DNA of 64,000 bases from Paenibacillus graminis. Its GTDB lineage: Bacteria > Bacillota > Bacilli > Paenibacillales > Paenibacillaceae. Positions within the stretch are counted from its first letter, which is position 1. Each line of letters starts with the position of its first letter. The translations under genes were made by a program, and so were the position numbers. Positions 2,076-45,692 of the stretch are shown here, one piece after another. Location: the NCBI RefSeq assembly GCF_000758705.1, contig NZ_CP009287.1, positions 2,232,001-2,296,000 of the forward strand. The letters are read 5' to 3'. The notes beneath the pieces are model-generated. The model made no database searches, had not been told where the DNA came from, and was given only the letters and a program-made list of their open reading frames with translations.

Positions 2076-2272
2076 ATAGTGGAACTAGTATACTTAATTG
2101 AATAAAATATCCTCAGAATGAGGATATAGTGGGAAAAAGTAGAGTTATTTTAAGCAATTCCTCCCGAAAAGCGGCGCATCGACAGAATTAGTTATCCTTT
2201 TTCCAACTAGCACTTACGGGGAAGCAGATTGGGAAGAATTAAGTTTACTTTCTCCTCTTGCACTTCCCACCG
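2076..2272. repeat. Dispersed four-motif element, copy 1 (degenerate)
   Basis: Two forward motifs (AGTGGAACTAGTATACTTAA near 2078; AGTGGGAAAAAGTAGAGTTA near 2128) are followed by two reversed motifs (AATTAGTTATCCTTTTTCC near 2187; AATTAAGTTTACTTTCTCC near 2238). This is the same two-forward, two-reverse plan as at 7704, 16407, 23109 and 45509, but more diverged. Confidence 0.6.
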
Positions 2273-2326
2273 GGTCCAAGCAAGAAGGAGTAGGGACTTG
2301 GGCGGGGGGCAGAGGTTCATCGTTGC

Positions 2327-2366
2327 TGCAAAATACAGCTTCAAGCTGTAACTGTATTTGGTTGCA
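2327..2366. repeat. Nested palindrome
   Basis: Outer arms TGCAAAATACAG and CTGTATTTGGTTGCA flank an inner perfect palindrome TACAGCTT-C-AAGCTGTA. The two pairings compete for the same TACAG bases. No T-tract follows, so this is not a terminator. Function unknown. Confidence 0.5.
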
Positions 2367-2607
2367 ATAATATGATTTGAAATTTTACGGGCTTTCTAGT
2401 TGGCTGTACCATTTACAGATAGCGTTTAAGTTCCATGGGGTGCATGCAGGGCAATAAGTCGAGTAATAAGTCAGGTAATAAATCCGCAAGGTGGGCATAA
2501 TAGATGCCATGAAGCCCGTCTGGCAAACAGGATATCATTGAATTGTATCTTCCATAACCCTTGCCGGCAGGCGGCTTTAGTCTCACCAAACCTCAGGAGG
2601 AATGGCT

Positions 2608-4407
2608 TTGCACAAGCTTATTCATAAACGTATTTTTTGGGGCTCGCTTATCCTGTGCTTACTGGTGGCGGTGCTGATTGTCCGGCTGGCTTGGGTACAG
2701 CTGCTTCTGAAGGACCGCAAAGTGCCGGGAGCGGAGTACTCCATGGCCCAGATGGCCGCGATCCAGAGTGAGCGGGAGGTAGTGCTCGACAGCGGCCGGG
2801 GGCGGATGTACGACCGCAGCGGCCAGCCGCTGGCCGGCGAAACGGTGTGGACGGCGGCTTTTTTTCCCCAGGACGAAGCGGAAGCGGAAGCAGCGGAGAG
2901 TGCTGCCGGCAAAGAGAAGCTGCAGCAGCTTGCCACGGTGCTGGGAGTAACCTACGAGCAGCTTCAGGCTGGACGCAGCGGGCTGAAAGAGCCGCTGCTC
3001 TGGCCTTCAGGCAGCGGCAAAAATCCGCTGGAGCTGACGCCGGGGCAGGCTGAAGCGGTTGAAGCGCTGGCTGTCGGCGGTGTGCGGGCGCTGCCTTTTG
3101 CCCGCCGGTATACGGGGGAAGCGACAGGCCGCCAGTGGCTGGGCTACCTGTCGGAAGCTAAGGCGGCGGAGGCGAAGGAATCGCCGACCGGTCTGAGAAT
3201 TCCTTTGACGGGAACCGATGGTCTGGAGAAGACGCTGGAGCCGCTTATGCAGGGAGTAGGCCATACCGAAGCTTATGCCCGGGTGGATGCGCGCGGCAAC
3301 CGTCTTCCTGACAGTCCCATTAAGGTGAGAGCGCCGGGGAATCCTTATTATCCGCTGTCTTTGTATACGACTATAGACAAGAAGCTTCAGGAGAATATTG
3401 AGAAGCTGGCTGTGAAATCTGGAGTCAAAGAAGGTGCTGTAGTAGTGCTGGATACCTCCACCAGTGATATTGAAGCTATGGTTTCATTGCCGTTCTATAA
3501 TCCCGCGCTGATTTCGCCAGAAGGAGGCGAGTGGAATAACCGGGCGCTTCAGGCTGCGGTTCCCGGCTCTATTTTCAAGATTGTAACCGCCGCTGCGGCA
3601 CTGGAAGCCGGTGTGACTTCGCCCGGGGAAAAGTTTTACTGCTCCGGGCATTACGGAAAATATGGCCTGTCCTGCCTGAAAGGAAAAGGACACGGCTCCC
3701 TTACCATGGCGCAAGGGTTCGCCGTGTCCTGCAATACCGTATTTGCCTCGCTGGCTGAGCGGCTGAGCGGAGCCCAGCTCCAGTCCGCCGCACTGGCGCT
3801 GGGGCTGGGCCGGGATATCAGCTGGCAAGCGGAAAATACGTTTGGCCTGCCGCTGCTCCGTCCGCTGTCCGGGGAACAGCCGGGGACAATCTTTACCACT
3901 CTGCTGCCCGATGACGGCGGAGCGAGGGTACAGACAGCAATTGGCCAGCGCGATGTCCGGGTCACACCGCTTCAGGCAGCCAACCTGCTGGTTACGCTGC
4001 TGCATGGTGGAGAAGTCCATGCGCCGCGTATACTTCAGCGGGTAGCATTCGCCAACGGACAGACGCTGAAAGAGCTTCCTGCCCATTTAGCCCCGTCCCC
4101 CCAAGGCAGAATCTCGCCGTCGACAGCCCATGAGCTGCTCTCCCTGCTGCGGAAGGTTGTGACCGGGGGAACCGGCAAAAGCCTGCAGGGCACGAAATGG
4201 CCTCTTGCAGGCAAGTCAGGTACAGCCCAGACATGGGTGAAGGGCATGCCCCGCAATAACCAATGGTTCGTCGGCTACGGACCGGCCGAGCACCCCAGAT
4301 TTGCGGTGTCCGTCCTGGTGGAGAATGTGGCCCCAGGGAGCCCGCATGTGGCCACCAGGCTGTTTGGTCAGGTATTTGATCTGCTGGCGGAATCCTCCGG
4401 CGCATGA
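2608..4407 (+). CDS. Class B penicillin-binding protein (PBP2/FtsI-type transpeptidase)
   Basis: D,D-transpeptidase that cross-links peptidoglycan outside the membrane. There is one N-terminal transmembrane helix (about 8-26), a non-catalytic N-terminal region, then the transpeptidase domain with all three active-site motifs: SIFK with the catalytic Ser near 321, SCN near 374 and KSG near 536. It lacks a PASTA tail. TTG at 2608 is preferred because AGGAGG at 2595-2600 lies seven bases before it, whereas the ATG at 2602 is only one base from the box. The length, 599 residues, is normal for class B PBPs. The particular role (elongation, division or sporulation) is not evident. Its 3' end overlaps the convergent gene by 40 bp. 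Confidence 0.9.
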   Translation: MHKLIHKRIFWGSLILCLLVAVLIVRLAWVQLLLKDRKVPGAEYSMAQMAAIQSEREVVLDSGRGRMYDRSGQPLAGETVWTAAFFPQDEAEAEAAESAAGKEKLQQLATVLGVTYEQLQAGRSGLKEPLLWPSGSGKNPLELTPGQAEAVEALAVGGVRALPFARRYTGEATGRQWLGYLSEAKAAEAKESPTGLRIPLTGTDGLEKTLEPLMQGVGHTEAYARVDARGNRLPDSPIKVRAPGNPYYPLSLYTTIDKKLQENIEKLAVKSGVKEGAVVVLDTSTSDIEAMVSLPFYNPALISPEGGEWNNRALQAAVPGSIFKIVTAAAALEAGVTSPGEKFYCSGHYGKYGLSCLKGKGHGSLTMAQGFAVSCNTVFASLAERLSGAQLQSAALALGLGRDISWQAENTFGLPLLRPLSGEQPGTIFTTLLPDDGGARVQTAIGQRDVRVTPLQAANLLVTLLHGGEVHAPRILQRVAFANGQTLKELPAHLAPSPQGRISPSTAHELLSLLRKVVTGGTGKSLQGTKWPLAGKSGTAQTWVKGMPRNNQWFVGYGPAEHPRFAVSVLVENVAPGSPHVATRLFGQVFDLLAESSGA

Positions 4408-5567
4408 GTGCCATCCGGATCACCGGAAACCGCCTCACCTCCCGGAGTGGAAGGCTCGCCGGATGCTGCGAATGGCGATACAATAAACTCTTCCTTCGGC
4501 AGGAAGATCCAGCGCTGGAGATACCCCTGCTGAAGCAGTTCCTTGAGCAGAATGAGCAGGATCGGCGAGAGAATCAAGCCGGCGAAGCCAAAGATGGAGC
4601 TGGACAGAATCACGAACGACAGCATCAGGAAAGCGGAGGATACGCCGATGGAATTACCGGTGATCTTCGGCTCCAGCAGCTGCCGCACAATCAGCACCAC
4701 CGCAAGCAGCACAATTAGGCCAATGGCCAGCGAAGTATTGCCGATGATGAACAGATATACAATCCAGGGGATCAGTATCGTCGACACCCCGAGCAGCGGA
4801 AGCACATCAAATACGGCGCAGACTATGGCCATAGTGATTTCATTGCCGCTTCTAAGGATAAAGAGCCCAACCAGGACAATGGCGAAGGTAATACTGATCA
4901 GAATCAGCTGTGCTTTGAGATAGGACCCGATGGCCTTGAAGACATTCCCCTGTAAAAAAGCATAAGCTGTCTTGAATGTTTTGGGCATCTTGTCATGAGC
5001 AATTTTGCGCCAGTCCTTAATCTCCATGCTGAGAAAAAAGGCCAGAATAATCGCAATGCCAAAATTAGCCATAAATGAAGAGAAGGAGCCAAGCACTCCG
5101 ATCATATATTTAAGGGAGATTACCAGCCAGCCCGAAAGCACATTGGTTGCTTCCTTAAAATAGCCGTTGATTTTGTTGGTAAGATCCGGCGGGAGTGCAT
5201 CAATCTTGTGCTGCAAATAAGTGGTCGTCTCAGCAAATTGCTGCTGTACGATATATGTATATCTGGGCAGATCGTCCTGGAATTGTAGTGCCTGCATCGT
5301 AATGAGCAGCCCGGCGCCGAACAACACACCCAGCAGCACAATCAGGAACAGGATGACCGAAATCGCGGAAGCAAACGGTTTGGCCATTCCCCGGCGGTTC
5401 AGAAAACGGGCCAGCGGCTCAATCATCAGAAATACAAAAAATGATAAGAACACAGGCGCGGCGAGCCGGTACACCGTACTGAAAGCGAACATCACAAGAT
5501 ACACGGTCAGCACGACTAAACCGATGTCGAATATGGTGCGCCAATATTTTTTGTACAGCGGCAACAT
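4368..5567 (-). CDS. AI-2E/YtvI-family membrane permease
   Basis: Polytopic membrane protein of the AI-2E transporter family (PF01594), the family of the B. subtilis sporulation protein YtvI. It is 399 residues long with paired hydrophobic helices near the N-terminus (about 15-80), a helical soluble segment (about 100-155), then five or six further helices up to about 350, including the family-typical run ending GFAGLILSPILLILLKE. The C-terminal 40 residues are polar, rich in Pro/Ser/Gly, and lie partly in the stretch that overlaps antisense with the PBP gene. AAGGAG is 12 bases before the ATG, a somewhat long spacing. Substrate is unknown; many members do not transport AI-2. Confidence 0.8.
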   Translation of the reverse strand: MLPLYKKYWRTIFDIGLVVLTVYLVMFAFSTVYRLAAPVFLSFFVFLMIEPLARFLNRRGMAKPFASAISVILFLIVLLGVLFGAGLLITMQALQFQDDLPRYTYIVQQQFAETTTYLQHKIDALPPDLTNKINGYFKEATNVLSGWLVISLKYMIGVLGSFSSFMANFGIAIILAFFLSMEIKDWRKIAHDKMPKTFKTAYAFLQGNVFKAIGSYLKAQLILISITFAIVLVGLFILRSGNEITMAIVCAVFDVLPLLGVSTILIPWIVYLFIIGNTSLAIGLIVLLAVVLIVRQLLEPKITGNSIGVSSAFLMLSFVILSSSIFGFAGLILSPILLILLKELLQQGYLQRWIFLPKEEFIVSPFAASGEPSTPGGEAVSGDPDGTHAPEDSASRSNT

Positions 5568-5809
5568 GAATATGAACGACTCCTTTTTAGATAAAGTAAC
5601 AAATTCAGCTTTAATTCATTGTACACGATTTTAACAAAAAAGCGTCTATTTCTTTGATACCTGTGTTAAAATAGGGGGTAACGTTTTTTCGTGGGAATCT
5701 GCCTACTTAAAAACCGCGAGGCATACTTTACTCTACTTGGCCGTATCACTGAATCTGCTTGCAGACCTAACGCGAGCCAAAGTCAACTCTGGAAAAGCGG
5801 GGAATTTAT

Positions 5810-7189
5810 ATGCAGACTTTGCTGCTCTGGTTATTTTATATTTCAACATTTTATGCCTTTATCCCTGGGATGATCAGCCGCTTATTTGGATATCGTGTCT
5901 TCCGCAAAGGGATGGGCCGCGGTGATTTTGCGCTTACTTTTGACGACGGTCCGGACTCGCTCTATACACCGCTGCTGCTTGATTTGCTGAAACGCTACGG
6001 TGCCAAGGCTACTTTTTTTGTTGTCGGCTCCCATGCCGAGCAGAACCCAGAAATTATCAAGCGTATGCATGATGAAGGGCATTTGATCGGAATCCATAAT
6101 TATGTTCACAAGACGAACTGGCTGATGCGTCCGGCTACCGTCAAACGCCAGATACAGCGCACGGATGATATTATTTTCAGTATTACCGGTGAACGGAGCA
6201 CGTATTACCGCCCGCCCTGGGGGATCGTTAATCTGTTCGACTTTTCGAAGCGCCGCCAGGTGCAGATCGTGCTGTGGTCGGCAATGTTCGGCGACTGGAA
6301 GGAAAAGCTCGGCGCAGAACGGCTGACAGAAAAGCTGCTTACCAAGCTGAATCCGGGCGAAGTGATGCTGCTGCATGACTGCGGCACCACACTCGGAGCG
6401 GACCCCAAAGCGCCTGAGCATATGCTGGTCGCCCTGGAGCGGATGCTGCAGGAGGCAGAACGGCGCGGACTGCGCAGCATCCGGGTCGATGAGATGATCA
6501 AGATGGGGCAGAGCTCTCCGATCCAAAAGCTTTCTTTTAGCAAAAGGCTGCTTGTCGGCTTATGGTTGGCTTGGGAGAAGGTTTTCCAGCTAATATTCCA
6601 GATTAAGACCCTCTCACCGGCAGATCCGTTCCTGCATTACCGTATACGCAAATATAAGGGAAAACCTGTACAGATGGAAGGCGGCGAACTGCTGGCCAAA
6701 GGCGACAAGGTGATTGAACTGCATATTGACAACAGGCAGCTCTTCGAGCTTGGCATTCATTCACGTTCCTCGGCACAGCTGGCGATCCGCATGATCCGCC
6801 GGATGGAGAAGGATATGCCGGTGCTGGCGCAGCGGATTGCCGGGGATATAGACCTGGCCGAAGCGAAAGCGCTGTACGGTGTCAGTATGATCAACCGCGG
6901 ACCGGAGAAATTCGGGTTCATGGTGCTGGATCTGCCGAAAGGGTGGTTTGCCCGGTCGGCCAAGTTTTACCTGAGTATACTGCTGAGTGTCATCCACCCG
7001 GCAGGAGGGGCAAGGCTAAAGGAACGGAGCGAGGTGCTGATTCCCAAAATGATGCTGATGCCCGTCTCCCAACTGCTTGACCAGATGAACCAGCAGCGTC
7101 CGCAGAAACAGGTGAAGCCCCGTGAGCAGCGTCGGGAAGAAGATTTGTCCCTGGAGGCTGAGCTGCCGGCAGCTACGGTTGTGCACTAA
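5810..7189 (+). CDS. Polysaccharide deacetylase (NodB homology) with C-terminal YkoP-like domain
   Basis: Carbohydrate esterase family 4 enzyme predicted to remove N-acetyl groups from peptidoglycan or another surface polymer. A hydrophobic N-terminal segment (about 3-22) acts as membrane anchor. The NodB motifs are complete: TFDDGPD (metal-binding and base Asp), HNYVH (metal His pair), RPPWG, GDW and LLHD. After about residue 225 comes a roughly 200-residue extension that resembles the YkoP-type domain found behind deacetylases in Bacillales, ending in a basic, Gln-rich tail. The ribosome binding site is weak (GCGGGGA), so the exact start is less certain. It is a single-gene transcript closed by a terminator. 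Confidence 0.87.
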   Translation: MQTLLLWLFYISTFYAFIPGMISRLFGYRVFRKGMGRGDFALTFDDGPDSLYTPLLLDLLKRYGAKATFFVVGSHAEQNPEIIKRMHDEGHLIGIHNYVHKTNWLMRPATVKRQIQRTDDIIFSITGERSTYYRPPWGIVNLFDFSKRRQVQIVLWSAMFGDWKEKLGAERLTEKLLTKLNPGEVMLLHDCGTTLGADPKAPEHMLVALERMLQEAERRGLRSIRVDEMIKMGQSSPIQKLSFSKRLLVGLWLAWEKVFQLIFQIKTLSPADPFLHYRIRKYKGKPVQMEGGELLAKGDKVIELHIDNRQLFELGIHSRSSAQLAIRMIRRMEKDMPVLAQRIAGDIDLAEAKALYGVSMINRGPEKFGFMVLDLPKGWFARSAKFYLSILLSVIHPAGGARLKERSEVLIPKMMLMPVSQLLDQMNQQRPQKQVKPREQRREEDLSLEAELPAATVVH

Positions 7190-7238
7190 TGATCACTGTT
7201 AAATGAAATGAAACAGCAAACAGCAATTATAAGATAAG

Positions 7239-7271
7239 CTTCTGTGACCTCAGGTTACAGGAGTTTTTTTG
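7239..7271 (+). terminator. Intrinsic terminator after the deacetylase gene
   Basis: An 11-bp stem CTTCTGTGACC / GGTTACAGGAG with loop TCA, followed directly by seven T. Confidence 0.88.
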
Positions 7272-7483
7272 ATTTTAAGGAAACTATGGTTTCCTGCTCT
7301 TGTGAAAAAACGCATGGGAGCTGCGGGGAAGTGAAGTGAAATTCACCTGGAAAGAGGGGAATCAGGCGGAGGAGATATCTATTTTCTAACTAGCGCTTGC
7401 GAAGAGCCGGGTCCCTGTGAACAATCCGGTGAACAAGTGCTGTATAGATTGAATTTGAAAATATAAAAAACAGGGAAAAGTGG

Positions 7484-7652
7484 CGGAACTAGAAGTATGG
7501 ATACTTACGGAGCGGTAGGGAGCGCCTGAAGGCTTTCTTGCAGGAAAGCTCGCTATCTTCAGCATAACCAGTCTGCGGATTTTAACCGCGAACAGCAATA
7601 TACCATCAAGAAATCTGCAGTTGGGCAGAGGTTGGAAGTCCAAGCATCCTCT
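7484..7652. repeat. Dispersed repeat C, copy 1
   Basis: Shares ordered blocks with 40220-40333: GGAACT, GTAGG(G)AGCG, CCGC(G/C)AACAGC, ATC(A/G)AGAAATCTG and GGAAGTCCAA(G/A)CAT(C/T)CTCT, separated by variable stretches. It contains the stem GAAGGCTTTCTTG/CAGGAAAGC around 7530-7550. Confidence 0.6.
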
Positions 7653-7703
7653 ATAGTTACGACCCATCCCGGAATCGAAAATCACAAGTTCAATTTATAT
7701 AGC

Positions 7704-7888
7704 AGTTGGAAAAAGGAAACTTATTTCTCCCCAAAGTCAACAATTGTGAGGTTTAAGTGGAAAAAAGAAACTTAATTGGACAATATTACTCCTTCATGGG
7801 TGAAATGAGCTGAATTAGTGTACCTTTTTCCACTTACGTTGCAGCGTACATGGTGCTTAGACAAATTAGTTATCCTTTTTCCACTTAT
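7704..7888. repeat. Dispersed four-motif element, copy 2
   Basis: Forward motifs at about 7705 (TTGGAAAAAGGAAACTTATT) and 7756 (AGTGGAAAAAAGAAACTTAA) are followed by reversed motifs at about 7815 (AATTAGTGTACCTTTTTCC) and 7864 (AATTAGTTATCCTTTTTCC). It is closely related along its full length to the copy at 45509-45692. Confidence 0.85.
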
Positions 7889-7943
7889 CCAGCTAACGAT
7901 GCCCCGAGAAGATACGTATGCTTCTTACACTATCTTCTTGACG

Positions 7944-9264
7944 CACCCGCCGCAGCGTCAGAGCTCCGCAACAACGGCAGAAATGCCGTTGTTTGCCCCG
8001 CCGCAGCGTCAGAGCTCCGCAACAACGGCAAAAACGCCGTTGTTTGACCCGCCGCAGGCAACAACGGCAAAAACGCCGTTGTTTGCCCCGCCGCAGTGGC
8101 AGAGCCCCGCAACAACGGCAAAAACGCCGTTGTTTGACCCGCCGCAGCGTCAGAGCTCCGCAACAACGGCAGAAATGCCGTTGTTTGCCCCGCCGCAGCG
8201 TCAGAGCTCCGCAACAACGGCAGAAATGCCGTTGTTTGCCCCGCCGCAGCGTCAGAGCTCCGCAACAACGGCAGAAATGCCGTTGTTTGCCCCGCCGCAG
8301 CGTCAGAGCTCCGCAACAACGGCAGAAATGCCGTTGTTTGCCCCACCGCAGCGTCAGAGCTCCGCAACAACGGCAGAAATGCCGTTGTTTGCCCCGCCGC
8401 AGCGTCAGAGCTCCGCAACAACGGCAGAAATGCCGTTGTTTGCCCCGCCGCAGCGTCAGAGCTCCGCAACAACGGCAGAAATGCCGTTGTTTGCCCCGCC
8501 GCAGCGTCAGAGCTCCGCAACAACGGCAGAAATGCCGTTGTTTGCCCCGCCGCAGCGTCAGAGCTCCGCAACAACGGCAGAAATGCCGTTGTTTGCCCCG
8601 CCGCAGCGTCAGAGCTCCGCAACAACGGCAGAAATGCCGTTGTTTGCCCCGCCGCAGCGTCAAAGCCCCGCAACAACGGCAGAAATGCCGTTGTTTGCCC
8701 CGCCGCAGCGTCAGAGCTCCGCAACAACGGCAGAAATGCCGTTGTTTGCCCCGCCGCAGTGGCAGAGCCCCGCAACAACGGCAGAAACGCCGTTGTTTGC
8801 CCCGCCGCAGCGTCAGAGCTCCGCAACAACGGCAGAAATGCCGTTGTTTGCCCCGCCGCAGCGTCAGAGCTCCGCAACAACGGCAGAAATGCCGTTGTTT
8901 GCCCCGCCGCAGCGTCAGAGCTCCGCAACAACGGCAGAAATGCCGTTGTTTGCCCCGCCGCAGCGTCAAAGCCCCGCAACAACGGCAGAAATGCCGTTGT
9001 TTGCCCCGCCGCAGCGTCAGAGCTCCGCAACAACGGCAGAAATGCCGTTGTTTGCCCCGCCGCAGCGTCAGAGCTCCGCAACAACGGCAGAAATGCCGTT
9101 GTTTGCCCCGCCGCAGCGTCAGAGCTCCGCAACAACGGCAGAAATGCCGTTGTTTGCCCCGCCGCAGCGTCAAAGCCCCGCAACAACGGCAGAAATGCCG
9201 TTGTTTGCCCCGCGCAGCAGAAAAGCTCCGCAACAACGGCAGAAATGCCGTTGTTGCGGAGCTT
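7944..9264. repeat. Tandem array of 51-bp units, each carrying a GAAA-looped hairpin
   Basis: There are 24 full 51-bp units and one 39-bp unit (8048-8086 region), then a final altered unit. Each full unit contains AACAACGGCA-GAAA-TGCCGTTGTT, a 10-bp perfect stem with a GNRA-type loop when read on the plus strand. A minority have AAAAAC or AGAAAC in the loop region. The final unit (9223-9264) extends the palindrome to 19-bp arms: AAGCTCCGCAACAACGGCA, loop GAAA, then the exact complement. Units with the variant CAAAGCCCC lie at 8661, 8967 and 9171, six and four units apart, which shows block duplication. No unique spacers exist, so it is not a CRISPR array. No protein is convincing in any frame. 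Confidence 0.95.
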
Positions 9265-9396
9265 ACGTGAACCAACATCTGTTGATTCTCCTGGCAAGTG
9301 TCTTAGCCAGGAAACCTTCGAAGCACATTCACTTACCGTTCCCAGTGCTTCCCGCACGGTAACTTTAGCGGTGCTGTGCAAATTGCCCAGCACCCA

Positions 9397-11082: not shown

Positions 11083-11231
11083 GATGACATTCCCCTCCTA
11101 ATTAAATATGAACCGGATATAGTGTCGCATTAACGCATTGCAATCCCAAAAGCTGCGTATCTGCGGTTTATAGAAAGAACGGGGTCCAGCTTCTTGCAGA
11201 AAACAGAAGGCGGTCGAAGCCGTTTCTATAA

Positions 11232-11260
11232 AATATAAGCGGATATAATACGAACGTTAA
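11232..11260 (-). promoter_or_regulatory. Candidate sigma-A promoter for ilvD
   Basis: On the minus strand TTAACG (-35, four of six consensus bases), a 17-bp spacer and TATATT (-10, five of six), about 150 bp before the start codon. Confidence 0.4.
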
Positions 11261-11341
11261 TAGTGAGTCTATCACAAAAGACCTCTTTTTTCTACCGGGC
11301 AATGTGAAGTTTGTCATTAGAAGATTCCCTTGCCGGACGCG

Positions 11342-11370
11342 GAAAAAGCCCATCCCGGAGGGGATAGGCT
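11342..11370 (-). terminator. Intrinsic terminator of the acyltransferase gene
   Basis: On the minus strand AGCCTATCCC / GGGATGGGCT (10 bp, one G-U) with loop CTCC, followed by TTTTTCC. Confidence 0.85.
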
Positions 11371-11384
11371 GATTTGGAATTATG

Positions 11385-16163: not shown

Positions 16164-16406
16164 GTACAGACGTCCGGCTAGAGTCCGGTCATATGAAGCA
16201 TTGGCATTGGCATGAACTGTTCACATCGCTATGGCTTTATAGGAGAGAAGGAAGATGCGGAAGGCTAAGAATAGGTCCAGTGTTGGCCTGTTATCACAAT
16301 TTCCTGTGCAAAAGCATTGTCCATAGGCCAGTTTATCTTAGAAGGTTGTTACTGAATAGGACAAAGGTACATGTAATCCAGGACTTTTAGTCTCTATGAC
16401 GTATTT

Positions 16407-16591
16407 TAGTGGAAAAAGTATCACTAATCCGGCCTAACTGGCCCCTGGGGCACTTTTAGTGGGAAAAAGTATCACTAATCCGGTCATAAACGTCCGGATG
16501 GGATGAAACAGCTTGAATTAAGTGTACAAAATCCCACTAAAACCCGTTTCCGTCAGATTTCCGGCGAATTAGTTTTACTTTTTCCACTTAA
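16407..16591. repeat. Dispersed four-motif element, copy 3
   Basis: Forward motifs begin at about 16408 (TAGTGGAAAAAGTATCACTA) and 16458 (AGTGGGAAAAAGTATCACTA). Reversed motifs lie at about 16514 (ATTAAGTGTACAAAATCCCA) and 16567 (AATTAGTTTTACTTTTTCC). It is nearly colinear with the copy at 23109-23293, including the central GGATGGGATGAAACAGCTTG. Confidence 0.88.
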
Positions 16592-16611
16592 CACTCTGCC
16601 ACCAGCTCCGT

Positions 16612-16664
16612 CCACCAGCCGCCAGCCCCACCAGCCCGTCCACCCGCCAGCCCCACCAGCCCCG
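16612..16664. repeat. Short CCACCAGCC-rich direct repeat
   Basis: The block CGCCAGCCCCACCAGCCC occurs twice within 53 bp, next to further CCACCAGCC copies, just downstream of the AraC gene on the minus strand. Confidence 0.7.
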
Positions 16665-23094: not shown

Positions 23095-23108
23095 ATGGAG
23101 CAGCCTAT

Positions 23109-23293
23109 GTGGGAAAAAGTACCACTATTTCGGCTCAACTGTCACCCGGGGCGTTTTTAGTGGGAAAAAGTACCACGATTCTGTCCATAAACGGCCGAAT
23201 GGGATGAAACAGCTTGAATTAGGTATACCAAATCCAACTAAAGCCTGTTGCAGCCCGATTTTCAGCTCATTAGGTTTACTTTTTCCCACTTAG
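23109..23293. repeat. Dispersed four-motif element, copy 4
   Basis: Forward motifs begin at about 23109 (GTGGGAAAAAGTACCACTA) and 23159 (AGTGGGAAAAAGTACCACGA). Reversed motifs lie at about 23217 and 23269 (ATTAGGTTTACTTTTTCCCA). Relative to copy 3, the small stem GTGG/TCAC has become GTGG/CCAC, which keeps pairing. Confidence 0.88.
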
Positions 23294-36225: not shown

Positions 36226-36236
36226 CAAACTAATTA

Positions 36237-36295: not shown

Positions 36296-36364
36296 TAATA
36301 ATTTAGGGCTCCCTCACGCAAAGTACTGAGCCGACTTAAGTTAAGGCCCACTATGAAGGGAATT

Positions 36365-37969: not shown

Positions 37970-37993
37970 TTCATCCACCCCCTGCAATAACAA

Positions 37994-38639: not shown

Positions 38640-38949
38640 GCAGTGATGGAGAAGAGTACGCAGTGCCTGGCTTACAGGGAGGAGACGCCGCAGATTGAGA
38701 GCGTTTCTAGGAGAGCAGAGCTGCCGAAGTTCACTCCGGAGCAGTTCCCTGAATTTTTTTCCACTCCTAATGGAAGGAAAGCGTAGGGGAAACCGGCCGC
38801 AGACCGTTATTTCTGCTAAAGTGAGACAGGTCTCTGTCATGCCATTAGGGGAATCGATTTCTCTTGAGGGGTGCGGCTCAGGACGGTCTAACAAGGGTGG
38901 TACCACGGTCTTTTCGTCCCTTACCGGGAGGAAAGGCCTTTTTTTGTTG
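38640..38949 (+). promoter_or_regulatory. T-box leader (tRNA-Phe-sensing) of pheS-pheT
   Basis: The diagnostic T-box bulge sequence AAGGGTGGTACCACGG is at 38893-38908, followed by the terminator GGTCTTTTCGTCCC / GGGAGGAAAGGCC and seven T (38907-38946). In Stem I, GGAG-AAGAGTA-CGCAG (38648-38663) faces CTGC-CGAAG-TTC-A-CTCC (38721-38737). This places TTC (38730-38732, Phe) in the specifier position, followed by a purine, opposite the AGTA S-turn. Uncharged tRNA-Phe is therefore predicted to prevent termination. Confidence 0.93.
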
Positions 38950-39081
38950 GAAATATAAGAATTTATAGGCTTCGCGCTATAAGTTATCCTTATATTTCTC
39001 GCTGAAACGGATACCGTCCCTAAAAGGGCGGTGTAGCCGTTTACACTTGATAACACCATGATAAGGGGGCAGTACACGGCC

Positions 39082-40116
39082 ATGAAAGAGAAGCTTGAAG
39101 CATTGAAGGTCGAAGCATTGGCGAAACTGCAGGAAGTTACCGATCCGCAGGTTCTGAATGATTTACGCGTGAAGTATCTGGGCAAAAAAGGTGAACTTAC
39201 AGAGGTCCTGCGCGGTATGGGCGGACTCAGCGCAGAGGAGCGCCCGGTGATCGGCCAGGTGGCCAATCTGGTGCGGGGCGCCATTGAGGAGATTATTGGT
39301 GCAAAGCAGGAGGCCTTCCAGCAGCAGGAGACGCTAAACCGCCTGAACGCGGAGAAGGTAGACGTTACCCTGCCGGGCCGCAGGCTGCCGCAAGGAGGCA
39401 TACACCCTATAAGCCGGGTAGTGCAGGAGATTGAGGATATTTTCATCGGCATGGGCTATCGGGTGGCGGAAGGCCCTGAAGTCGAAACGGATTACTACAA
39501 CTTTGAAGCACTCAACCTGCCGAAGAACCATCCGGCCCGCGATATGCAGGATTCCTTCTATTTGACAGAAGACATCCTGATGCGCACACAGACCTCGCCG
39601 GTGCAGATCCGCACCATGCAGGCGATGAAGGGGGAGACGCCGGTCAAAATCATCTGTCCGGGCAAGGTGTTCCGCCGCGATGACGACGATGCGACCCACT
39701 CCTTCCAGTTCCACCAGATCGAAGGGCTTGTAATCGGCCCCAACATCCGCATGAGCGATCTGAAGGGCACGCTGCAGCAGTTTGTGCAGGAAATGTTCGG
39801 ACCGAACACGGGCATCCGCCTGCGTCCCAGCTTCTTCCCGTTCACCGAACCTAGTGTTGAGGTGGACGTGAGCTGCTTCAAATGCGGCGGCCATGGCTGC
39901 CGTCTCTGCAAGCAGAGCGGCTGGCTGGAAATCCTCGGCGCCGGCATGGTTCACCCGAACGTGCTGGAAATAGGCGGCTATGATCCTGCCGAGTACAGCG
40001 GCTTCGCTTTCGGTATGGGCGCGGAGCGGATTGCGATGCTGAAATACGGCATTGATGACATCCGCTATTTCTACACGAATGATATGGCTTTTGTGAAACA
40101 GTTCAAGGGGATTTAG
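39082..40116 (+). CDS. pheS: Phenylalanyl-tRNA synthetase alpha subunit
   Basis: Catalytic subunit of the alpha2-beta2 enzyme that charges tRNA-Phe. An N-terminal helical arm (about 1-85) is followed by the class II core with motif 2 ([19 protein letters not shown]) and motif 3 ([17 protein letters not shown]). It is 344 residues when started at the ATG at 39082, matching known PheS N-termini (MKEKLEAL). The in-frame ATG at 39058 lacks a ribosome binding site. It is controlled by the upstream T-box. pheT lies 350 bp downstream. Confidence 0.96.
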
Positions 40117-40219
40117 ATTTTTGGCGGGTGTGCGTGGGGGAGCGGGACTGGATACTGCAAGCCCGATGGATGACGGCTGTTCTAATTAAATGACTGTAAT
40201 CAAAGGGCCGGAGGGGAAT

Positions 40220-40333
40220 TTTGGAACTGTAGGAGCGATAGCGACCGCCTTTGTCACCGGATTTCCACCGCCAACAGCGGGTTAAATCGAGAAATCTGGG
40301 GACAACAGCGGCCGGAAGTCCAAACATTCTCTG
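40220..40333. repeat. Dispersed repeat C, copy 2, between pheS and pheT
   Basis: Shares ordered blocks with 7484-7652, including CCGCCAACAGC, ATCGAGAAATCTG and GGAAGTCCAAACATTCTCT. It carries the local stem TAGGAGCGATAGCGACCGCC. It occupies most of the 350-bp pheS-pheT gap, where B. subtilis has almost no spacer. No terminator or new promoter is evident. Confidence 0.6.
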
Positions 40334-40466
40334 CAGGAACACTGCCATACAGGAATTTCTATAGGACGAAGTTGGCACCACGGCTTGTTCTATCCCTCTT
40401 TTTCGCTCGCCAAGCACAGACGGCACGTAGATAAATACATCTGATACAAAAAGGAAGTGTGCGAAC

Positions 40467-42911
40467 ATGAAAGTATCAACCTCCTGGCTCACGGATTACA
40501 TCTCGCTTGAGGGCGTGACCGCACTTGAGCTGGCAGACCGGATCACCACCGCCGGCATCGAGATCGACGGTGTGGAGCCCCGCAATAAAGGCCTTTCCGG
40601 CATTGTTGTCGGCTATGTGAAATCGAAAGAAAAGCACCCTGACGCCGACAAGCTGAATGTGTGCATCGTGGACGCCGGACAAGGCGAGGATCTGCAGATT
40701 GTCTGCGGAGCCAAGAATGTAGCCGCAGGCCAAAAGGTTCCGGTTGCCCTGGTGGGCGCCAAGCTGCCGGGCCTGGATATCAAGAAGGCCAAGCTTCGCG
40801 GTGTATTGTCGCAGGGCATGATCTGCTCCGCAAAGGAGCTGGGCCTTAATGACAAGCTGCTCCCTAAGGAACTGCAGGAGGGCATTCTGGTTCTGCCCGA
40901 GAACACAGAAATCGGCCAGGATATTCTGAAGGTGCTGGGTCTGAACGATGAAATCCTGGATTTCGATCTGACCCCGAACCGTTCCGACTGTCTCAGCATG
41001 ATCGGGGCGGCTTATGAAGTGAGTGCGATTCTGGGCCGTGACCTCAAGCTGCCAGACCCGGCAGCGGACTTGGTGGAGGCAGGCGGTTTGGCTTCCGGCT
41101 CCATCTCGGTCAAGATAGAGAATGAAGAGTACTGCAAGCATTACGCAGTTCGCTACATTTCCGGGGTGAAGCCTGCCCCGTCACCGCTCTGGATTCAGAA
41201 CCGCCTCATGGCGGCGGGTGTGCGTCCAATCAACAACATCGTGGACATTACCAACTATGTGATGCTGGAGTATGGACAGCCGCTGCATGCATTCGACGGC
41301 GACAAAGTGGAAGGCGGTGTGCTGGGTGTGCGGTTTGCCCGCGAAGGCGAGCTGCTGACCACACTTGACGGACAGGAACGCAAGCTGGAGCCGCAGATGC
41401 TGGTTATTGCTGATGGTGCCAAGGCTGTGGCCCTGGCCGGAGTCATGGGCGGCCTGGAGACAGAAGTTACGGCGGATACCGTGAACATTGTTCTGGAATC
41501 TGCCAAGTTCGACGGAGGAACCGTCCGTAAAACCTCGCGCCAGCTGGGTCTGCGCTCTGAAGCTTCCCTTCGCTTCGAGAAGGAAGTTGATCCGGATGCC
41601 GTGATCCCCGCATTGAACCGTGCCGCTGCCCTGATTGCCCGTTATGCCGGAGGCACTGTGCATGAAGGTATAGTGCAGGCCGGAAACGGAACGGTGGATG
41701 AGAAGGTGCTGACTTTATCCCTGGAGAAGCTGAACCGTTATCTTGGTACAGACCTGTCGCTGCTGGAAGTGAAAACTTTGTTCAGCCGTCTGCATTTCAA
41801 GTGCGGTGATGCGGATCAAGGGCTCGTAGAGGTGCAGGTGCCGGCAAGACGCGGTGATATCAGCTATGATGTTGATCTGATCGAAGAAGTCGCCCGTTTA
41901 TACGGCTATGACAATATTCCTACAACCCTGATTGAGGGTGTGACTACACCGGGAGCCTTGACCAGACGGCAGTTTCAGCGCCGTGAATTGCGGCGCCTGC
42001 TGGCAGACGGGGGCTACCAGGAGGTTATGGGGTATTCCTTCATTCAGCCGGAACAGAGTAAATTATTCCCGGCCCTTGCCGATGGTCTTCTATCTGTGAA
42101 GCTGGCGATGCCGATGAGCGAGGAGCGCAGCGTTCTGCGCACCAGTCTGATTCCCCAGCTGCTGGACATTGCCCGCTACAATACGAACCGCCGCCAAAGT
42201 GATCTGGCGCTGTTCGAGATCGGGAATGTCTTCTTCACGGACGAAGAGCAGCTGACCCGCCAGCCGCGTGAACAGGCGGTGCTGGGCCTCCTGCTGAGCG
42301 GCAGCCGGGCAGCCAAGCAATGGAATGTGGAAGAGCAGCCTGTGGATTTCTTCGACCTCAAGGGTGCGCTGGAAACTGTGTTTAACTATCTGGGCCTTGC
42401 GGACCGCGTGAGCTATGAAGGCGATGCGCCGGAGAATTACCACCCGGGCCGCTCTGCCTCCATCTATTTGCAGGGCACTGAAGGGCGTGTGAAGCTGGGA
42501 ACCCTCGGCCAGCTCCATCCGGAACTGCAGCGTGGGCTGGACCTGGAAGATACCTACGTGGCCGAGCTGCTGCTTCAGCCGCTCTACAGCGCCGCCCGCA
42601 CCAGTCTGCAGTACACTGAACTGCAGCGCTTCCCGGGAATGGAGCGGGATATCGCTGTTGTGGTGGATTCCGCAGTGCCTGCCGGGCACCTGCTGGCTTC
42701 CATCCGTGAGAACGGCGGAACTCTGCTGCAGAACGTTCAGGTATTTGATGTGTACACAGGCGGCAAGATGGAGAGCGGCAAGAAAAGCATAGCCATTTCG
42801 CTGCTGTACCGTCATACCGACCATACACTGACCGACGAAGAGGTTGTAGAGGTGCATGACAAGGTTGTTTCCGCGCTTCAGCAAACTTTTGGCGCAGAAT
42901 TAAGAAAGTAG
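40467..42911 (+). CDS. pheT: Phenylalanyl-tRNA synthetase beta subunit
   Basis: Large subunit of the Phe-tRNA synthetase, carrying tRNA recognition and editing functions. The N-terminal tRNA-binding EMAP-like domain (about 40-150, VVGYVKSKEKHPDADKLNVCIVDAG) is followed by B3/B4 (about 200-400), B5, the inactive synthetase-like core and the C-terminal ferredoxin-fold anticodon-binding domain (about 720-814, SIALSLLYRHTDHTLTDEEV-like). The 814 residues are normal. AAGGAAG precedes the ATG. Confidence 0.96.
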   Translation: MKVSTSWLTDYISLEGVTALELADRITTAGIEIDGVEPRNKGLSGIVVGYVKSKEKHPDADKLNVCIVDAGQGEDLQIVCGAKNVAAGQKVPVALVGAKLPGLDIKKAKLRGVLSQGMICSAKELGLNDKLLPKELQEGILVLPENTEIGQDILKVLGLNDEILDFDLTPNRSDCLSMIGAAYEVSAILGRDLKLPDPAADLVEAGGLASGSISVKIENEEYCKHYAVRYISGVKPAPSPLWIQNRLMAAGVRPINNIVDITNYVMLEYGQPLHAFDGDKVEGGVLGVRFAREGELLTTLDGQERKLEPQMLVIADGAKAVALAGVMGGLETEVTADTVNIVLESAKFDGGTVRKTSRQLGLRSEASLRFEKEVDPDAVIPALNRAAALIARYAGGTVHEGIVQAGNGTVDEKVLTLSLEKLNRYLGTDLSLLEVKTLFSRLHFKCGDADQGLVEVQVPARRGDISYDVDLIEEVARLYGYDNIPTTLIEGVTTPGALTRRQFQRRELRRLLADGGYQEVMGYSFIQPEQSKLFPALADGLLSVKLAMPMSEERSVLRTSLIPQLLDIARYNTNRRQSDLALFEIGNVFFTDEEQLTRQPREQAVLGLLLSGSRAAKQWNVEEQPVDFFDLKGALETVFNYLGLADRVSYEGDAPENYHPGRSASIYLQGTEGRVKLGTLGQLHPELQRGLDLEDTYVAELLLQPLYSAARTSLQYTELQRFPGMERDIAVVVDSAVPAGHLLASIRENGGTLLQNVQVFDVYTGGKMESGKKSIAISLLYRHTDHTLTDEEVVEVHDKVVSALQQTFGAELRK

Positions 42912-42923
42912 CAGGAATTGTGC

Positions 42924-42971
42924 AAAGCCGCAGCGAATCCATTTACAAACGGAATTCGCTGCGGCTTTTTC
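42924..42971 (+). terminator. Intrinsic terminator of pheT
   Basis: AAAGCCGCAGCGAA / TTCGCTGCGGCTTT, a perfect 14-bp stem continued by TCC/GGA, then TTC after the T-run. Confidence 0.9.
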
Positions 42972-43107
42972 TCACTTTTTTTTGAGCTGCGGCGGTTACC
43001 GGAAATCTATGAAATCAGCGCCTTTTGGCAAAAGAGAATGAATCACGCTACAATAGGAGCAGAGAGACCAGCTTAGAATCCGCACACATACAAAGGAGGG
43101 CACAACT

Positions 43108-45279
43108 GTGGCTATGGACCGGACTCGTGTCGCCGTGGAGATATATGGAACTTCTTATAAACTTGTCGGAAGCAGCACTGAATATATGAAACAGGTTGCC
43201 CGTTATGTAGACGAGCATATGCGGGCCATTTCCAAATCACATACCAGACTGGATACCCCGCGGATTGCAGTGCTTGCTGCCGTACATATGGCGGAACAGG
43301 CTATTCAGGTACAGGACTTTAAGAACGAGCTGAACATGCTGACCGGAGAGCGCACGGAGCTGCGTGTAGAAGTTGCACGTCTTACGGAGGCCCAGAAGGA
43401 ACGGCAGGAAGAATATGAACGGCTGGAAGCGGCAGCCCGAGAGGAAGCATCCCGTCTGGCCGCTGAAGCCGAAGAGGAGCGCAGGCGGCACCTGGAGATT
43501 CAGGAGCAGGAACGGAAGCTTCACGCTGAGGCACTGCTGGAAGCGGAGAGGGCAGCGGCTGCGGCCCGTGAGCAGCTGGCTGAAGAGCTGAAGGCGCGTG
43601 AAGCGGAGCTGAAATCGCTCAGAGAGCGTTATGAGCGGGAGCAGGCAGCGGGGCGTGAGAGCCACCGGCAGGAGCTGGCTGCAACTGAGGCGGCCCGTCT
43701 GCAGCAGCTTGAAGAGCTGAAAGCTGCACATCTGCAGGAACTGGAGCAGCTGCGTGAAACGCTGGACAAGGAAAAAGCAGAGTCGCTGTCCCGGCTTGAG
43801 CAGGAACTTGCCCAGACCCGCGAGTCTCTTGGAGGGGAGATTGTGGAGATCCGCTCATCGCTCAGCAAGGAACTGGCGGATACCAAGTCCACGCTTGAGA
43901 AGGAGCTTGCGGAGGAGCACGAGGCGCGGCAGAAGGAGCTTGCCAAGAACAAGGAGCTGCGGCAGTCGCAGGGCACGCAGGAGCATCGCCATAAGCAGCA
44001 GCTCCAGGAGATGGAGAAGCAGCTTGGCGAGCTGCGCGGCGGCACCGGACAGCTGCAATCCAGGCTGCGTGCGGCTGAAGCTGGTCTTAAGAGCGAGCGC
44101 GAGGGCCGTTTGACGCTGCTGGCCCAGTACGAAGCCGTGCTGAAGCGGGAAGAGCAGCTGACGGAAGAGCTTCGTGCTGCTGCCGAGCAGGGAGCGCTGC
44201 AGCAGGAAGAGCTTGAGGCCCTGCGCCAGCGTTATGAGGCTGTGCAGCAGGAGGCTGACGGGCTTAAGGAATCGCTGCAGGAAACCGCAGAGAGCCTGAG
44301 CCGGGTAAAGGCTGAGCTGCACTCTGCCAATGAGCTTGGAGATCTTCTTAGCGATGAGCTGGAGGAATTGCGCCAGCGCCATGACAGGAAGCAGGAGGAA
44401 GCTGCTGTGCTTCACCAATCATTGGAAGAAACCAAGAGCAGCCTGCATCAGCTGGAAGGTGAGCTCACCCAGGCCGCTTCGGAAGCAGCAACCTGGCAGG
44501 AGCTGGCCGGTAAGCACATGGAGGATATCGGAGAACTGGAAATGAAGCTGCTGGAAGCGGAGGAAAAGTCTTCGGCGCTGCAGAAGGAGATTGAGACGCT
44601 GCGCGGACAGGCGGACGGCATGGTCCAGCAGCTTGACCGTGAATCCGGCCTGCGGGCTGAAGCGGAAGCCGAGAGCCGGCAGTATCGGGCGGAGGCGGAA
44701 GCCGCCCGCAAGGAGCTGGCTGCACTGCGCGGCCGTTACGAAGAGCTTATCGCACAGTATGACGAGGTGCTGCAGGATGGCGAGCAGCTGAAGGAAAGAT
44801 ATGAGCTGCTCGAGGCGGAAGGCGAAGAAACGGCCCGCCGCCTGGAAGAGCTGTACGAGGCTGGGCGTGAAGCTGCCGCTGCGGCGGCAGAGCAGCAGGA
44901 GGCGCTGCGGGAAACCCGCGAGATCGAAGCTTCCTGGAAGCGGAAATACGAGGAACTCCTGCAGAGCCAGCAGGAGTGGAGCGAGACGGAAGCGCAGCTC
45001 CGCGAGGAAATCGAGATTTGGGAGCAGGAAGCCAGCAAGGCGGAAGCGGAAGCCGAATCCATGAACCGGGAGCACACTCAGGTGCAGCAGCAGCTTGACG
45101 AGATCGGCGAGAGCTATGAGCTGGTTCAGGGCCAGCTGCGCCTGATGCAGGCGCAGTCTGAGATGCGGCAGGGCGAGCTGGAGAAGCTGTCCCAGGAGCA
45201 CCAGAGCCTGCAGGCGGAATATGCCAAGCTGCAGCGTGAATATAATGAATGGATTCAACTGATCGAACAGGACAGTTGA
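43108..45279 (+). CDS. zapA: ZapA-domain protein with a very long C-terminal coiled coil
   Basis: The first 80-90 residues are a ZapA domain (RVAVEIYGTSYKLVGSSTEYMKQVARYVDEHM...TPRIAVLAAVHMAEQ), the FtsZ-bundling factor. In B. subtilis that is essentially the entire protein (85 residues). Here the frame continues for about 630 more residues of nearly uninterrupted Glu/Ala/Leu/Arg-rich heptads without a membrane segment, 723 residues in all. GTG 43108 has AGGAGG at an eight-base spacing. The position behind pheT matches the pheS-pheT-zapA order in Bacillales. The N-terminal identity is secure. The purpose of the rod is inferred: a spacer or scaffold at the Z-ring. Confidence 0.85.
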   Translation: MAMDRTRVAVEIYGTSYKLVGSSTEYMKQVARYVDEHMRAISKSHTRLDTPRIAVLAAVHMAEQAIQVQDFKNELNMLTGERTELRVEVARLTEAQKERQEEYERLEAAAREEASRLAAEAEEERRRHLEIQEQERKLHAEALLEAERAAAAAREQLAEELKAREAELKSLRERYEREQAAGRESHRQELAATEAARLQQLEELKAAHLQELEQLRETLDKEKAESLSRLEQELAQTRESLGGEIVEIRSSLSKELADTKSTLEKELAEEHEARQKELAKNKELRQSQGTQEHRHKQQLQEMEKQLGELRGGTGQLQSRLRAAEAGLKSEREGRLTLLAQYEAVLKREEQLTEELRAAAEQGALQQEELEALRQRYEAVQQEADGLKESLQETAESLSRVKAELHSANELGDLLSDELEELRQRHDRKQEEAAVLHQSLEETKSSLHQLEGELTQAASEAATWQELAGKHMEDIGELEMKLLEAEEKSSALQKEIETLRGQADGMVQQLDRESGLRAEAEAESRQYRAEAEAARKELAALRGRYEELIAQYDEVLQDGEQLKERYELLEAEGEETARRLEELYEAGREAAAAAAEQQEALRETREIEASWKRKYEELLQSQQEWSETEAQLREEIEIWEQEASKAEAEAESMNREHTQVQQQLDEIGESYELVQGQLRLMQAQSEMRQGELEKLSQEHQSLQAEYAKLQREYNEWIQLIEQDS

Positions 45280-45299
45280 ATGGCGGACGCATGAGAGAA

Positions 45300-45331
45300 G
45301 GGCCCCAGGCAGTTCCTACTGCCTGGGGCCC
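45300..45331 (+). terminator. Strong hairpin after zapA
   Basis: A perfect 13-bp stem GGGCCCCAGGCAG / CTGCCTGGGGCCC with loop TTCCTA. The T-run (eight T) comes about 18 bases later, so efficiency as an intrinsic terminator is uncertain. Confidence 0.7.
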
Positions 45332-45508
45332 GCCTTATTTGTTCTTTTTTTTGAAATTACTGGTTGCCTGCATCTATGAAAATAATGTGCATAAGGTTGC
45401 GGGTAAGTAGACGTACGTGAATTGGCGGCGCATTTGGGTGGAAAATCAGCCAGCTTCGATAGCCCTTTTCCAACTCAAGCTGTCGATTCAACAGGTGGAA
45501 CAACCGCT

Positions 45509-45692
45509 GGTTGGAAAAAGGGAACTTATTTCCCCTCCAAATCAACAAATGAGGGATTTAGGTGGAGAAAGGGAACCTAATGGGGCAATTGTACTCCTTC
45601 AGGAACGAGATGAGCTGAAATAGTGAACCTTTTTCCACTTAAGCTGCGGAGATCGGTGTGCTGGGGCAAATTAGTGATCCTTTTTCCACTTG
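45509..45692. repeat. Dispersed four-motif element, copy 5
   Basis: Forward motifs at about 45511 (TTGGAAAAAGGGAACTTATT) and 45561 (AGGTGGAGAAAGGGAACCTAA) are followed by reversed motifs at about 45618 (AAATAGTGAACCTTTTTCC) and 45668 (AAATTAGTGATCCTTTTTCC). A further reversed half (CCCTTTTCCAACTC) lies at 45462. It is the closest relative of the copy at 7704-7888. Confidence 0.85.

Follow-up and report, generated by a model that had tools for sequence, protein, structure and literature searches.

BOX elements of Streptococcus pneumoniae are modular intergenic cassettes of the form boxA-(boxB)n-boxC, in which the number of units varies. The orientation of KOPS and other polar chromosome motifs, and of fork-oriented insertions such as IS200/IS605, follows replication; to our knowledge, neither KOPS-type motifs nor IS200/IS605 come with a four-site intergenic cassette at spacings of 51, 54 and 51 bp. 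REP/BIME elements, including the GTAG/CGTC REP families, are short intergenic units, numerous and clustered in direct and inverted orientation; they form mosaic clusters and prefer convergent and unidirectional gaps, as described in the available part of PMC3733652. The sites of Noc and SlmA are single palindromes, numbering about 70 and 24–52, respectively, of which few lie near the terminus; a polarity of these sites is not mentioned (PMC4726725, available part).

The element described here occurs in five copies in a 64,000-bp stretch of the Paenibacillus graminis chromosome (hereafter the window) and resembles each of these systems in part. It shares the modular plan of BOX (a comparison of plans, not of sequences), but it is built from a single unit repeated four times in a mirror-image layout and no conserved fold was found. 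It is similar to REP/BIME in its short intergenic units, clustering and gap preference, but its arms pair without covariation, its 51/54/51 spacing is fixed, one subfamily has near-complete replication polarity, and no GTAG or CGTC tag appeared in the column frequencies of 104 units. With Noc and SlmA it has in common many chromosomal sites, few of them near the terminus in the P. graminis genome, but it is a four-site cassette and has no terminus deficit in the relative G028. No published description of the four-site element was found in the literature searched, including the available parts of PMC3733652, PMC2267715, PMC5670726 and PMC4726725, although one may exist elsewhere. We tentatively propose that it is a rigid cluster of putative protein-binding sites acting on replicating DNA and a new repeat family; if real, it would be a DNA element of precise geometry that is widespread in Paenibacillus.

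Architecture of the element

All five intervals in the window were read, and in each a single ~24-bp unit (approximate consensus, TTAGTKGGAWWWWGTAMMACTAATT) was present twice in direct and then twice in inverted orientation, the four units and their filler spanning in total a 187-base intergenic cassette. Copy 1, which is degenerate, occupies 2075–2261 on the + strand (F1 2075–2105, F2 2126–2156, R1 2180–2210, R2 2231–2261) in a gap between two + strand genes. Copies 2 and 5 belong to family A, are oriented with replication on the + strand and lie in convergent gaps (copy 2, 7702–7888: F1 7702–7732, F2 7753–7783, R1 7807–7837, R2 7858–7888; copy 5, 45507–45693: F1 45507–45537, F2 45558–45588, R1 45612–45642, R2 45663–45693). 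Copies 3 and 4 belong to family T, with their best alignment on the − strand: copy 3 (16405–16591; units 16405–16435, 16456–16486, 16510–16540 and 16561–16591) lies in a convergent gap at a position common to genomes G015, G028 and G033, with a diverged form in G027 and G035, and copy 4 (23106–23292; units 23106–23136, 23157–23187, 23211–23241 and 23262–23292) lies between two + strand genes. An earlier sequence-only reading of this DNA had proposed the same plan of two forward and two reversed motifs in the five intervals, had grouped copy 2 with 5 and copy 3 with 4 while calling copy 1 degenerate, and had placed all copies between genes and three of them between convergent genes, all of which agrees with the 20 units found and with the gene calls made here.

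In each of the five window copies, successive units started at distances of 51, 54 and 51 bp, with core centres 51, 60 and 51 bp apart. The same reading had given the centres as about 50, 60–80 and 50 bp apart; the fixed spacing stands, but the range of 60–80 bp does not, the middle distance being 60 bp in all five and the flanking ones 51 bp. A weight matrix, whose training set included the 20 window units, recovered 20/20 of them with 14 to 42 bits versus a maximum of 3.9 in one shuffled window, and AGTGGAAAAAG with up to two mismatches had 46 matches in the window versus 18.7 ± 4.3 in shuffles. Among P. graminis genome units of at least 12 bits, with weaker overlapping units left out, the F–R distance was exactly 54 bp in 43 of 44 near pairs, and the F–F and R–R distances were 51 or 52 bp in 38/40 and 42/47, respectively. 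These spacing counts were taken in place of indel counts, which were discarded because loose gap costs produced spurious gaps.

Filler identity among family A copies was 43%, and among paralogues the filler was less conserved than the units. In 13 comparisons of orthologues at eight loci, units had changed at 104/1137 positions (9.1%) and filler at 251/1271 (19.7%), the pairs having been picked by hand with one locus used four times and another three, so that the comparisons are not independent. Slower change of the units was seen at five of the eight loci; at copy 5 they were no slower than the filler (core 28/261, filler 27/296), and at loci 397430 and 519666 no slower unit change was seen to any extent. 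The proposal that it is the four motifs that are conserved is supported overall, in spacing as well as in sequence, but not at three of the eight loci including copy 5, and filler as conserved as the motifs was found neither among paralogues nor in most orthologue comparisons.

Adjoining copy 2 is a + strand tandem array (7946–9255; period 51 bp, 25.9 copies) with the hairpin AACAACGGCA-GAAA-TGCCGTTGTT, which is a separate repeat family with the 51-bp pitch of the cassette. Phase locking of the cassette with hairpin arrays was rejected on scattered residuals. A-loop hairpin arrays are unrelated to the cassette in sequence, have the same pitch and mostly the same replication polarity, and often adjoin it.

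Distribution in the genome and genus

The P. graminis genome contains hundreds of units: with up to two mismatches, AGTGGAAAAAGNNNNACTNAT had at least 190 + 190 matches versus 6 + 4 for the reversed control, so that the genome search suggested by the sequence-only reading yielded many further copies rather than none. The four-site plan recurred in stretches of four diverged Paenibacillus species, where 11 elements were found with the spacing left free (outer distances of 51 bp in 19/22, middle distances of 53–54 bp in 11/11) and shuffled stretches, one shuffle each, gave 0 elements. Genomes for the multi-genome element and Y1 counts were chosen, mostly for prior matches, and were no random sample; element matches were scored among the best 125 candidates at most per genome. 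A separate multi-genome count was set aside, as its reversed control was high in element-rich genomes (78 + 71 in P. graminis).

Judged from their sequence divergence, the P. graminis paralogues are old (319 pairs: best 88%, median 75.8%). A partner in G028 was present for 8 of 14 anchored P. graminis clusters and missing for 6 of 14, which indicates turnover between species. Among the G028 matches listed, the copies at 3095458 and 3258147 were identical over 80 letters, pointing to recent spread there, and among the alignments listed for G027, copies were embedded in longer repeats ~82–98% alike.

Orientation relative to replication

The strongest result of the analysis is the polarity of family A, the main subfamily. 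Its one-way tag, ACTAATTCAGCYCATTTCGC, followed replication in 73 of 76 whole-genome matches (five of which fall in one tandem locus), switching strand at the terminus: the skew switches near 3.65 Mb, and the tag was on the − strand in 32/33 matches before that point and on the + strand in 41/43 beyond it, versus 0 for the control. In the relative G028, the family A tag followed replication in 98 of the 100 matches listed out of 138 (− in 60/62 up to 4.06 Mb, + in 38/38 from 4.23 Mb). When whole elements were oriented (44 of 55 clusters, with a score over 60 and an orientation margin of 25 bits or more), replication was followed by 33 of the 35 that belong to family A, whereas family T had no polarity (4/9). 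Where both neighbouring genes opposed replication, family A still followed replication in 4/4 cases; gene direction does not explain its polarity. If real, the element, with a family A polarity near 97%, would be either read by a putative protein of the replicating chromosome or written at the fork by a putative mobile system.

Scarcity round the terminus was seen in the P. graminis genome only, where 4 clusters lay in 400 kb versus 24 and 25 under the same criteria with equal gaps; among the 46 top-scored of the matches listed, 2 lay in 3.4–3.8 Mb and 2 in 4.76–5.16 Mb, and the deficit was not visible. G028 had no such deficit, with many of the matches listed between 3.0 and 4.6 Mb, so scarcity was dropped as a general feature and the likeness to Noc and SlmA is weak.

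Gene context

We compared gaps with and without the element (47 of 55 clusters, three or more unit matches, overlapping matches included). Convergent gaps were favoured and divergent gaps avoided: 14/46 and 4/46 of gaps with an element were convergent and divergent, respectively, versus 16/159 and 47/159 of those without. A terminator preceded the element at 28/49 facing gene 3′ ends (control, 51/120), as determined with a finder that replaced a stricter one detecting only 6/128 controls. In unidirectional gaps (n = 28) the element lay at a median of 222 bp from the upstream stop, unlike REP. This preference for convergent gaps and the frequent location beyond terminators would suit an element that bounds transcription or acts on supercoiling where genes end, such as a gyrase-binding, BIME-like element or an insulator between convergent genes. 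We consider this unlikely, as polarity tracks replication even where both neighbours oppose it, and only 11/94 element strands contained terminator-like structures.

Folding of the element as RNA

A structured RNA with the F and R motifs as its arms was the second reading offered earlier, beside protein binding. Copy 3 did fold better than shuffles (z = −5.8) and copy 2 weakly so (z = −1.97), but inverted repeats fold by construction, and the RNAalifold consensus energy was −0.09 kcal/mol, although two of five RNAalifold pairs had changes on both sides. In units whose core begins GGA (n = 206), the arms were more complementary than letter-shuffled arms (9.59 versus 8.55), but with arms permuted within classes the stem score was 9.96, so that these units depart from the REP pattern, in which a palindrome of 20–40 bp folds into a hairpin and changes in its stem are complementary. 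Pairing of F1 with R2 and of F2 with R1 was not above permutation, that of filler 1 with filler 3 in subfamily A1 was slightly above it (13/300 reach it), and family T retains a mismatched F2:R1 core. There was no Rfam match in the window, and the 77 intergenic novel transcripts in the RNA-seq of P. riograndensis SBR5, as given in the available part of PMC5670726, are fewer than the copies expected. Since folds, covariation and RNAalifold gave no support beyond these small exceptions, and polarity follows replication and not genes, we rejected the RNA-hairpin reading, which we regard as very improbable. Of the two earlier readings, RNA arms are not supported, and protein binding is favoured by replication polarity, lack of covariation and position beyond terminators.

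Protein-binding sites or a mobile repeat

Under the protein-binding reading, a sequence-specific Paenibacillus protein would recognise each ~24-bp unit in double-stranded form. With four such sites, two per direction, spaced by 51, 54 and 51 bp (roughly five turns of the helix), the bound proteins could line up along the same face of the DNA and assemble into a single fixed complex. Such complexes would label DNA between genes, for the most part away from divergent promoter gaps and frequently past terminators, and in the main subfamily replication would set their polarity. From this we infer a protein, its binding and a role, most likely in organisation, segregation or a fork-related process on the replicating chromosome.

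Almost as likely, though slightly less so, is a non-autonomous mobile repeat, whose enzyme would recognise the units and insert the element on one strand at the fork, polarity then being the direction of insertion. The many copies in subfamilies, the clusters without a G028 partner, the longer repeats around G027 copies, the independence of polarity from gene direction, and tandem extra units (FFFFFFFRR in L024, FFRRR in several) are consistent with this, and as the near-identical G028 copies among the matches listed are already polar, an insertion bias is the simpler explanation of their polarity. On the other hand, an old insertion evolving neutrally should not have cores that change more slowly than filler, as seen at five of the eight orthologous loci, and the age of the P. 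graminis paralogues and the lack of polarity in family T also argue against it. At five presence/absence loci read by eye, the missing stretch was longer than the element and no bounding duplication was seen, consistent with the lack of terminal target duplication noticed earlier; none of the five had an empty site of the element's size bounded by a duplication. Phage and plasmid collections contained no DNA similar to copy 2. The Y1 transposase PF01797 was present in 17 of 27 chosen genomes (20 loci) but absent in G050, G122, G123, G136 and G037, each with at least 93–125 element matches; since PF01797 does not track the element, unlike in REPIN/RAYT systems, mobilisation by Y1/RAYT was rejected.

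A broader reading, in which the 51-bp (five-turn) pitch is a Paenibacillus chromosome standard and the cassette and A-loop hairpin arrays are docking lattices for one fork-travelling or fork-following machine, is conceivable but unlikely.

One copy of the element contained an IS3-type element (C1, 402.6–404.0 kb), the ends of which, by eye, are unlike the units. IS3 was accordingly rejected as a partner of the repeat; it would be a later insertion, so that the clusters at 402639 and 404045 are probably one element.

A four-unit cassette of fixed spacing recurs in Paenibacillus

One unit of about 24 bp, repeated twice in direct (F1, F2) and twice in inverted orientation (R1, R2) as the sequence-only reading proposed, was present in all five 187-bp intervals (window positions 2075–2261, 7702–7888, 16405–16591, 23106–23292 and 45507–45693, copies 1 to 5), with unit starts 51, 54 and 51 bp apart in each by a 31-bp weight matrix and a unit consensus of about TTAGTKGGAWWWWGTAMMACTAATT. 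The proposed subfamilies were likewise recovered: copies 2 and 5 are family A elements, with GGAAAAAG as F2 core; copies 3 and 4, which align best on the − strand and have one inner core close to GGATTTTG, are family T elements; and copy 1 is degenerate. By gene calls made in this analysis, all five lie between genes, three of them in convergent gaps. The F–R distance was 54 bp in 43 cases, 53 in 1 and 99–115 in 4; the F–F distance was 51 in 27, 52 in 11 and 50, 53 and 98 in one case each; and the R–R distance was 51 in 33, 52 in 9, 50 in 4 and 49 in 1. Surplus units also exist (FFFFFFFRR at locus L024, FFRRR at several loci). Mean pairwise identity was 70% in cores and 43% in filler for family A (35 elements), and 81% and 61%, respectively, for family T (26 elements).

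The element is not confined to these five copies: across the 7.17-Mb genome the unit pattern matched 190 + 190 times, versus 6 + 4 for its reversed control, and a three-unit pattern of fixed spacing with at most one mismatch gave 93 + 75 genome-wide versus 2 + 1, many elements being counted on both strands. In the 864 kb fully scanned, 55 clusters were found (24 in 200–600 kb, 26 in 4.76–5.16 Mb, 5 in the window), 34 of them full FFRR and some only lone or weak units. In related genomes, unit matches with at most one mismatch exceeded 200 in each of G015, G027, G028 and G033, and numbered 29 in G035. A sequence-only model (57 elements; rough E-values, at most 125 candidates scored per genome) matched at least 85 times in 17 of the 20 genomes chosen; the remaining three had 14, 8 and 0 matches. 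When spacing was left free, 200-kb stretches of four genomes (G122, G136, G072, G037), scanned with matrices seeded with the P. graminis motif, yielded 11 elements, and one shuffle of each stretch yielded none; 19 of 22 outer distances equalled 51, and all 11 middle ones were 53–54. Three genomes with few standard units (G009, G011, G060) carry a recurrent variant unit, AGTGGAAAAACTCCAACTAAT or near.

Family A follows replication

Among gaps of at least 250 bp, convergent ones made up 14 of 46 with an element versus 16 of 159 without (p = 0.0015), and divergent ones 4 of 46 versus 47 of 159 (p = 0.0034). A terminator-like structure preceded the element at 28 of 49 gene 3′ ends facing it (controls: 51 of 120 3′ ends, 23 of 184 5′ sides).

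Because a complete FFRR reads almost alike on both strands, orientation was read from the asymmetric filler. Family A followed replication in 33 of 35 confidently oriented elements of the samples (convergent gaps 11/12, unidirectional 22/22, divergent 0/1), including all 4 in unidirectional gaps with genes that oppose replication. Searched over the whole genome, a one-way tag taken from the centre of family A matched 76 times (control, 0; a single tandem locus at 5.908 Mb accounts for five). The GC skew switches near 3.65 Mb: below this point 32 of 33 matches were on the − strand, and above it 41 of 43 were on the + strand. For G028, 100 of 138 tag matches were listed: up to 4.06 Mb there are 62, of which 60 lie on −, and from 4.23 Mb there are 38, all on +; GC skew there was positive in the regions measured (0.2–0.6 and 2.46–2.52 Mb). 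Family T showed no polarity (4 of 9 with replication in the samples). Strand composition seems an unlikely cause of the polarity, given that the tag has a defined sequence and that family T showed no polarity.

By most measures the P. graminis genome has a deficit near the terminus. Under equal criteria, 4 clusters were found in the 3.4–3.8 Mb sample versus 24 and 25 in the two remaining samples of 400 kb, the three having similar numbers of gaps of at least 250 bp (97, 94, 100); among exact three-unit matches listed (to 6.31 Mb), 3 elements fell in 3–4 Mb, and the remaining complete megabases had 16, 8, 18, 15 and 14. Two observations tell against it: the 46 top-scored matches listed for the P. 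graminis genome include 2 in 3.4–3.8 Mb and 2 in 4.76–5.16 Mb, and many of the matches listed for G028 lie between 3.0 and 4.6 Mb. The deficit is therefore no general rule.

Units are conserved at five of eight loci, and copies are gained and lost

The claim that units are kept while filler diverges held in part. At eight loci compared with G015, G028 and G033 (13 comparisons, those with a common locus not being independent), 104 of 1137 core positions had changed versus 251 of 1271 in filler. Cores were clearly slower at five (copy 3 and loci 321704, 339249, 445810 and 535780), whereas copy 5 (28/261 vs 27/296) and locus 397430 (26/84 vs 27/85) showed no difference and locus 519666 (15/88 vs 18/99) a negligible one. 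Flanks had changed at 446 of 1492 positions, a figure that poor alignments underlie.

Copy 3 has counterparts in G015, G028 (two copies) and G033 (two copies), diverged ones in G027 and G035, and no unit in G050, G072 or G041, where the gap is too short for an element. Anchoring in G028 succeeded for 14 of the 24 P. graminis clusters in 200–600 kb, with a partner at 8 and none at 6. As the sequence-only reading had noted for the window, no terminal duplication was seen to bound the element at the five presence/absence loci read, and the missing stretch was longer than the element. P. graminis paralogues are old, judging from their identities (best pair 88%, median 75.8%, 319 pairs). In G028, many family A cassettes among the matches listed (to 4.53 Mb) are nearly identical (in copies 3095458 and 3258147 all 80 letters shown agree), so that cassettes seem to have multiplied recently in that lineage. 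The G027 copies lie within mosaic repeats of up to ~1.3 kb, ~82–98% alike among the alignments listed.

Several further features were also observed: the mosaic intergenic repeats of G027 (L150–L169) include hairpin modules of other kinds besides cassettes of family T; a P. graminis cassette (402639–404127, L071) is interrupted by an IS3-type element with two reading frames; a palindrome module, GTGAATTCAGCGAATTCAC or near, lies upstream of some family A copies (near 515480 and 474745); and a short GC-rich tandem repeat (16599–16662, unit ~25 bp) adjoins copy 3, the same gap in relatives holding other GC-rich repeats.

Protein recognition is favoured over a folded RNA

The motifs had been proposed to form either a protein-binding cluster or the arms of a folded RNA; the latter found little support, with no covariation within units or between F and R. 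Unit arms are complementary on average but do not covary (score 9.59, versus 9.96 permuted within classes and 8.55 letter-shuffled; 206 units), and F1:R2 and F2:R1 pairing stayed at permutation level. Pairing of filler 1 with filler 3 in subfamily A1 was slightly above permutation (reached by 13 of 300). RNAalifold returned five pairs at −0.09 kcal/mol, two with changes on both sides. Folds of copy 3 (z = −5.8) and copy 2 (z = −1.97) were better than those of shuffled sequence, which is common for inverted repeats. Within the tests made, the element does not look like a folded RNA. Separately, a c-di-GMP-I-GGC riboswitch match above the gathering score was seen at L075 (15011–15104).

We instead favour recognition of the cassette by a predicted DNA-binding protein, located at the fork or behind it, because of the fixed spacing over diverged filler, the two-way site, the replication polarity and the location outside promoters. 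Two candidates for this recogniser stand close together. It could be a host chromosome protein, as unit conservation at five of eight old loci and the persistence of the plan in the genus would favour, or the enzyme of a mobile repeat inserted at the fork, as the young G028 cassettes, already oriented with replication, would favour. A single element may answer to both descriptions. The cassette resembles REP/BIME, BOX and polar chromosome motifs; it lacks the REP and RAYT features tested, and no description of it was found in the literature searched. Relevant to MITEs are the lack of any bounding duplication seen at the five loci and a missing stretch longer than the element; relevant to Noc/SlmA-type site sets is the terminus deficit, present in P. 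graminis by most measures and lacking in G028.

Period-51 hairpin arrays

A tandem array of GAAA-loop hairpins lies at window 7946–9255 (period 51 bp, 25.9 copies), and related period-51 arrays occur elsewhere in the genome. The 864 kb contain 54 tandem arrays, 10 of them with period 51 (other periods at most 3 times each): two arrays of cassette units and eight of hairpins, with cores such as CAACGGCA-GAAA-TGCCGTTG and CAAAGGTA-GAAA-TACCTTTG. By eye, hairpin arrays of period 50–52 were seen in stretches of six of seven genomes (G122, G136, G072, G028, G027 and G033), and none in that of G037. Hairpin loci near cassettes had no common phase; 8 of 14 lay within 450 bp of a cassette (binomial p = 0.005). 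By pattern, 14 of 14 hairpin loci point with replication; of the arrays in the terminus sample, three do likewise and one (3577829) does not, besides two weak single matches.
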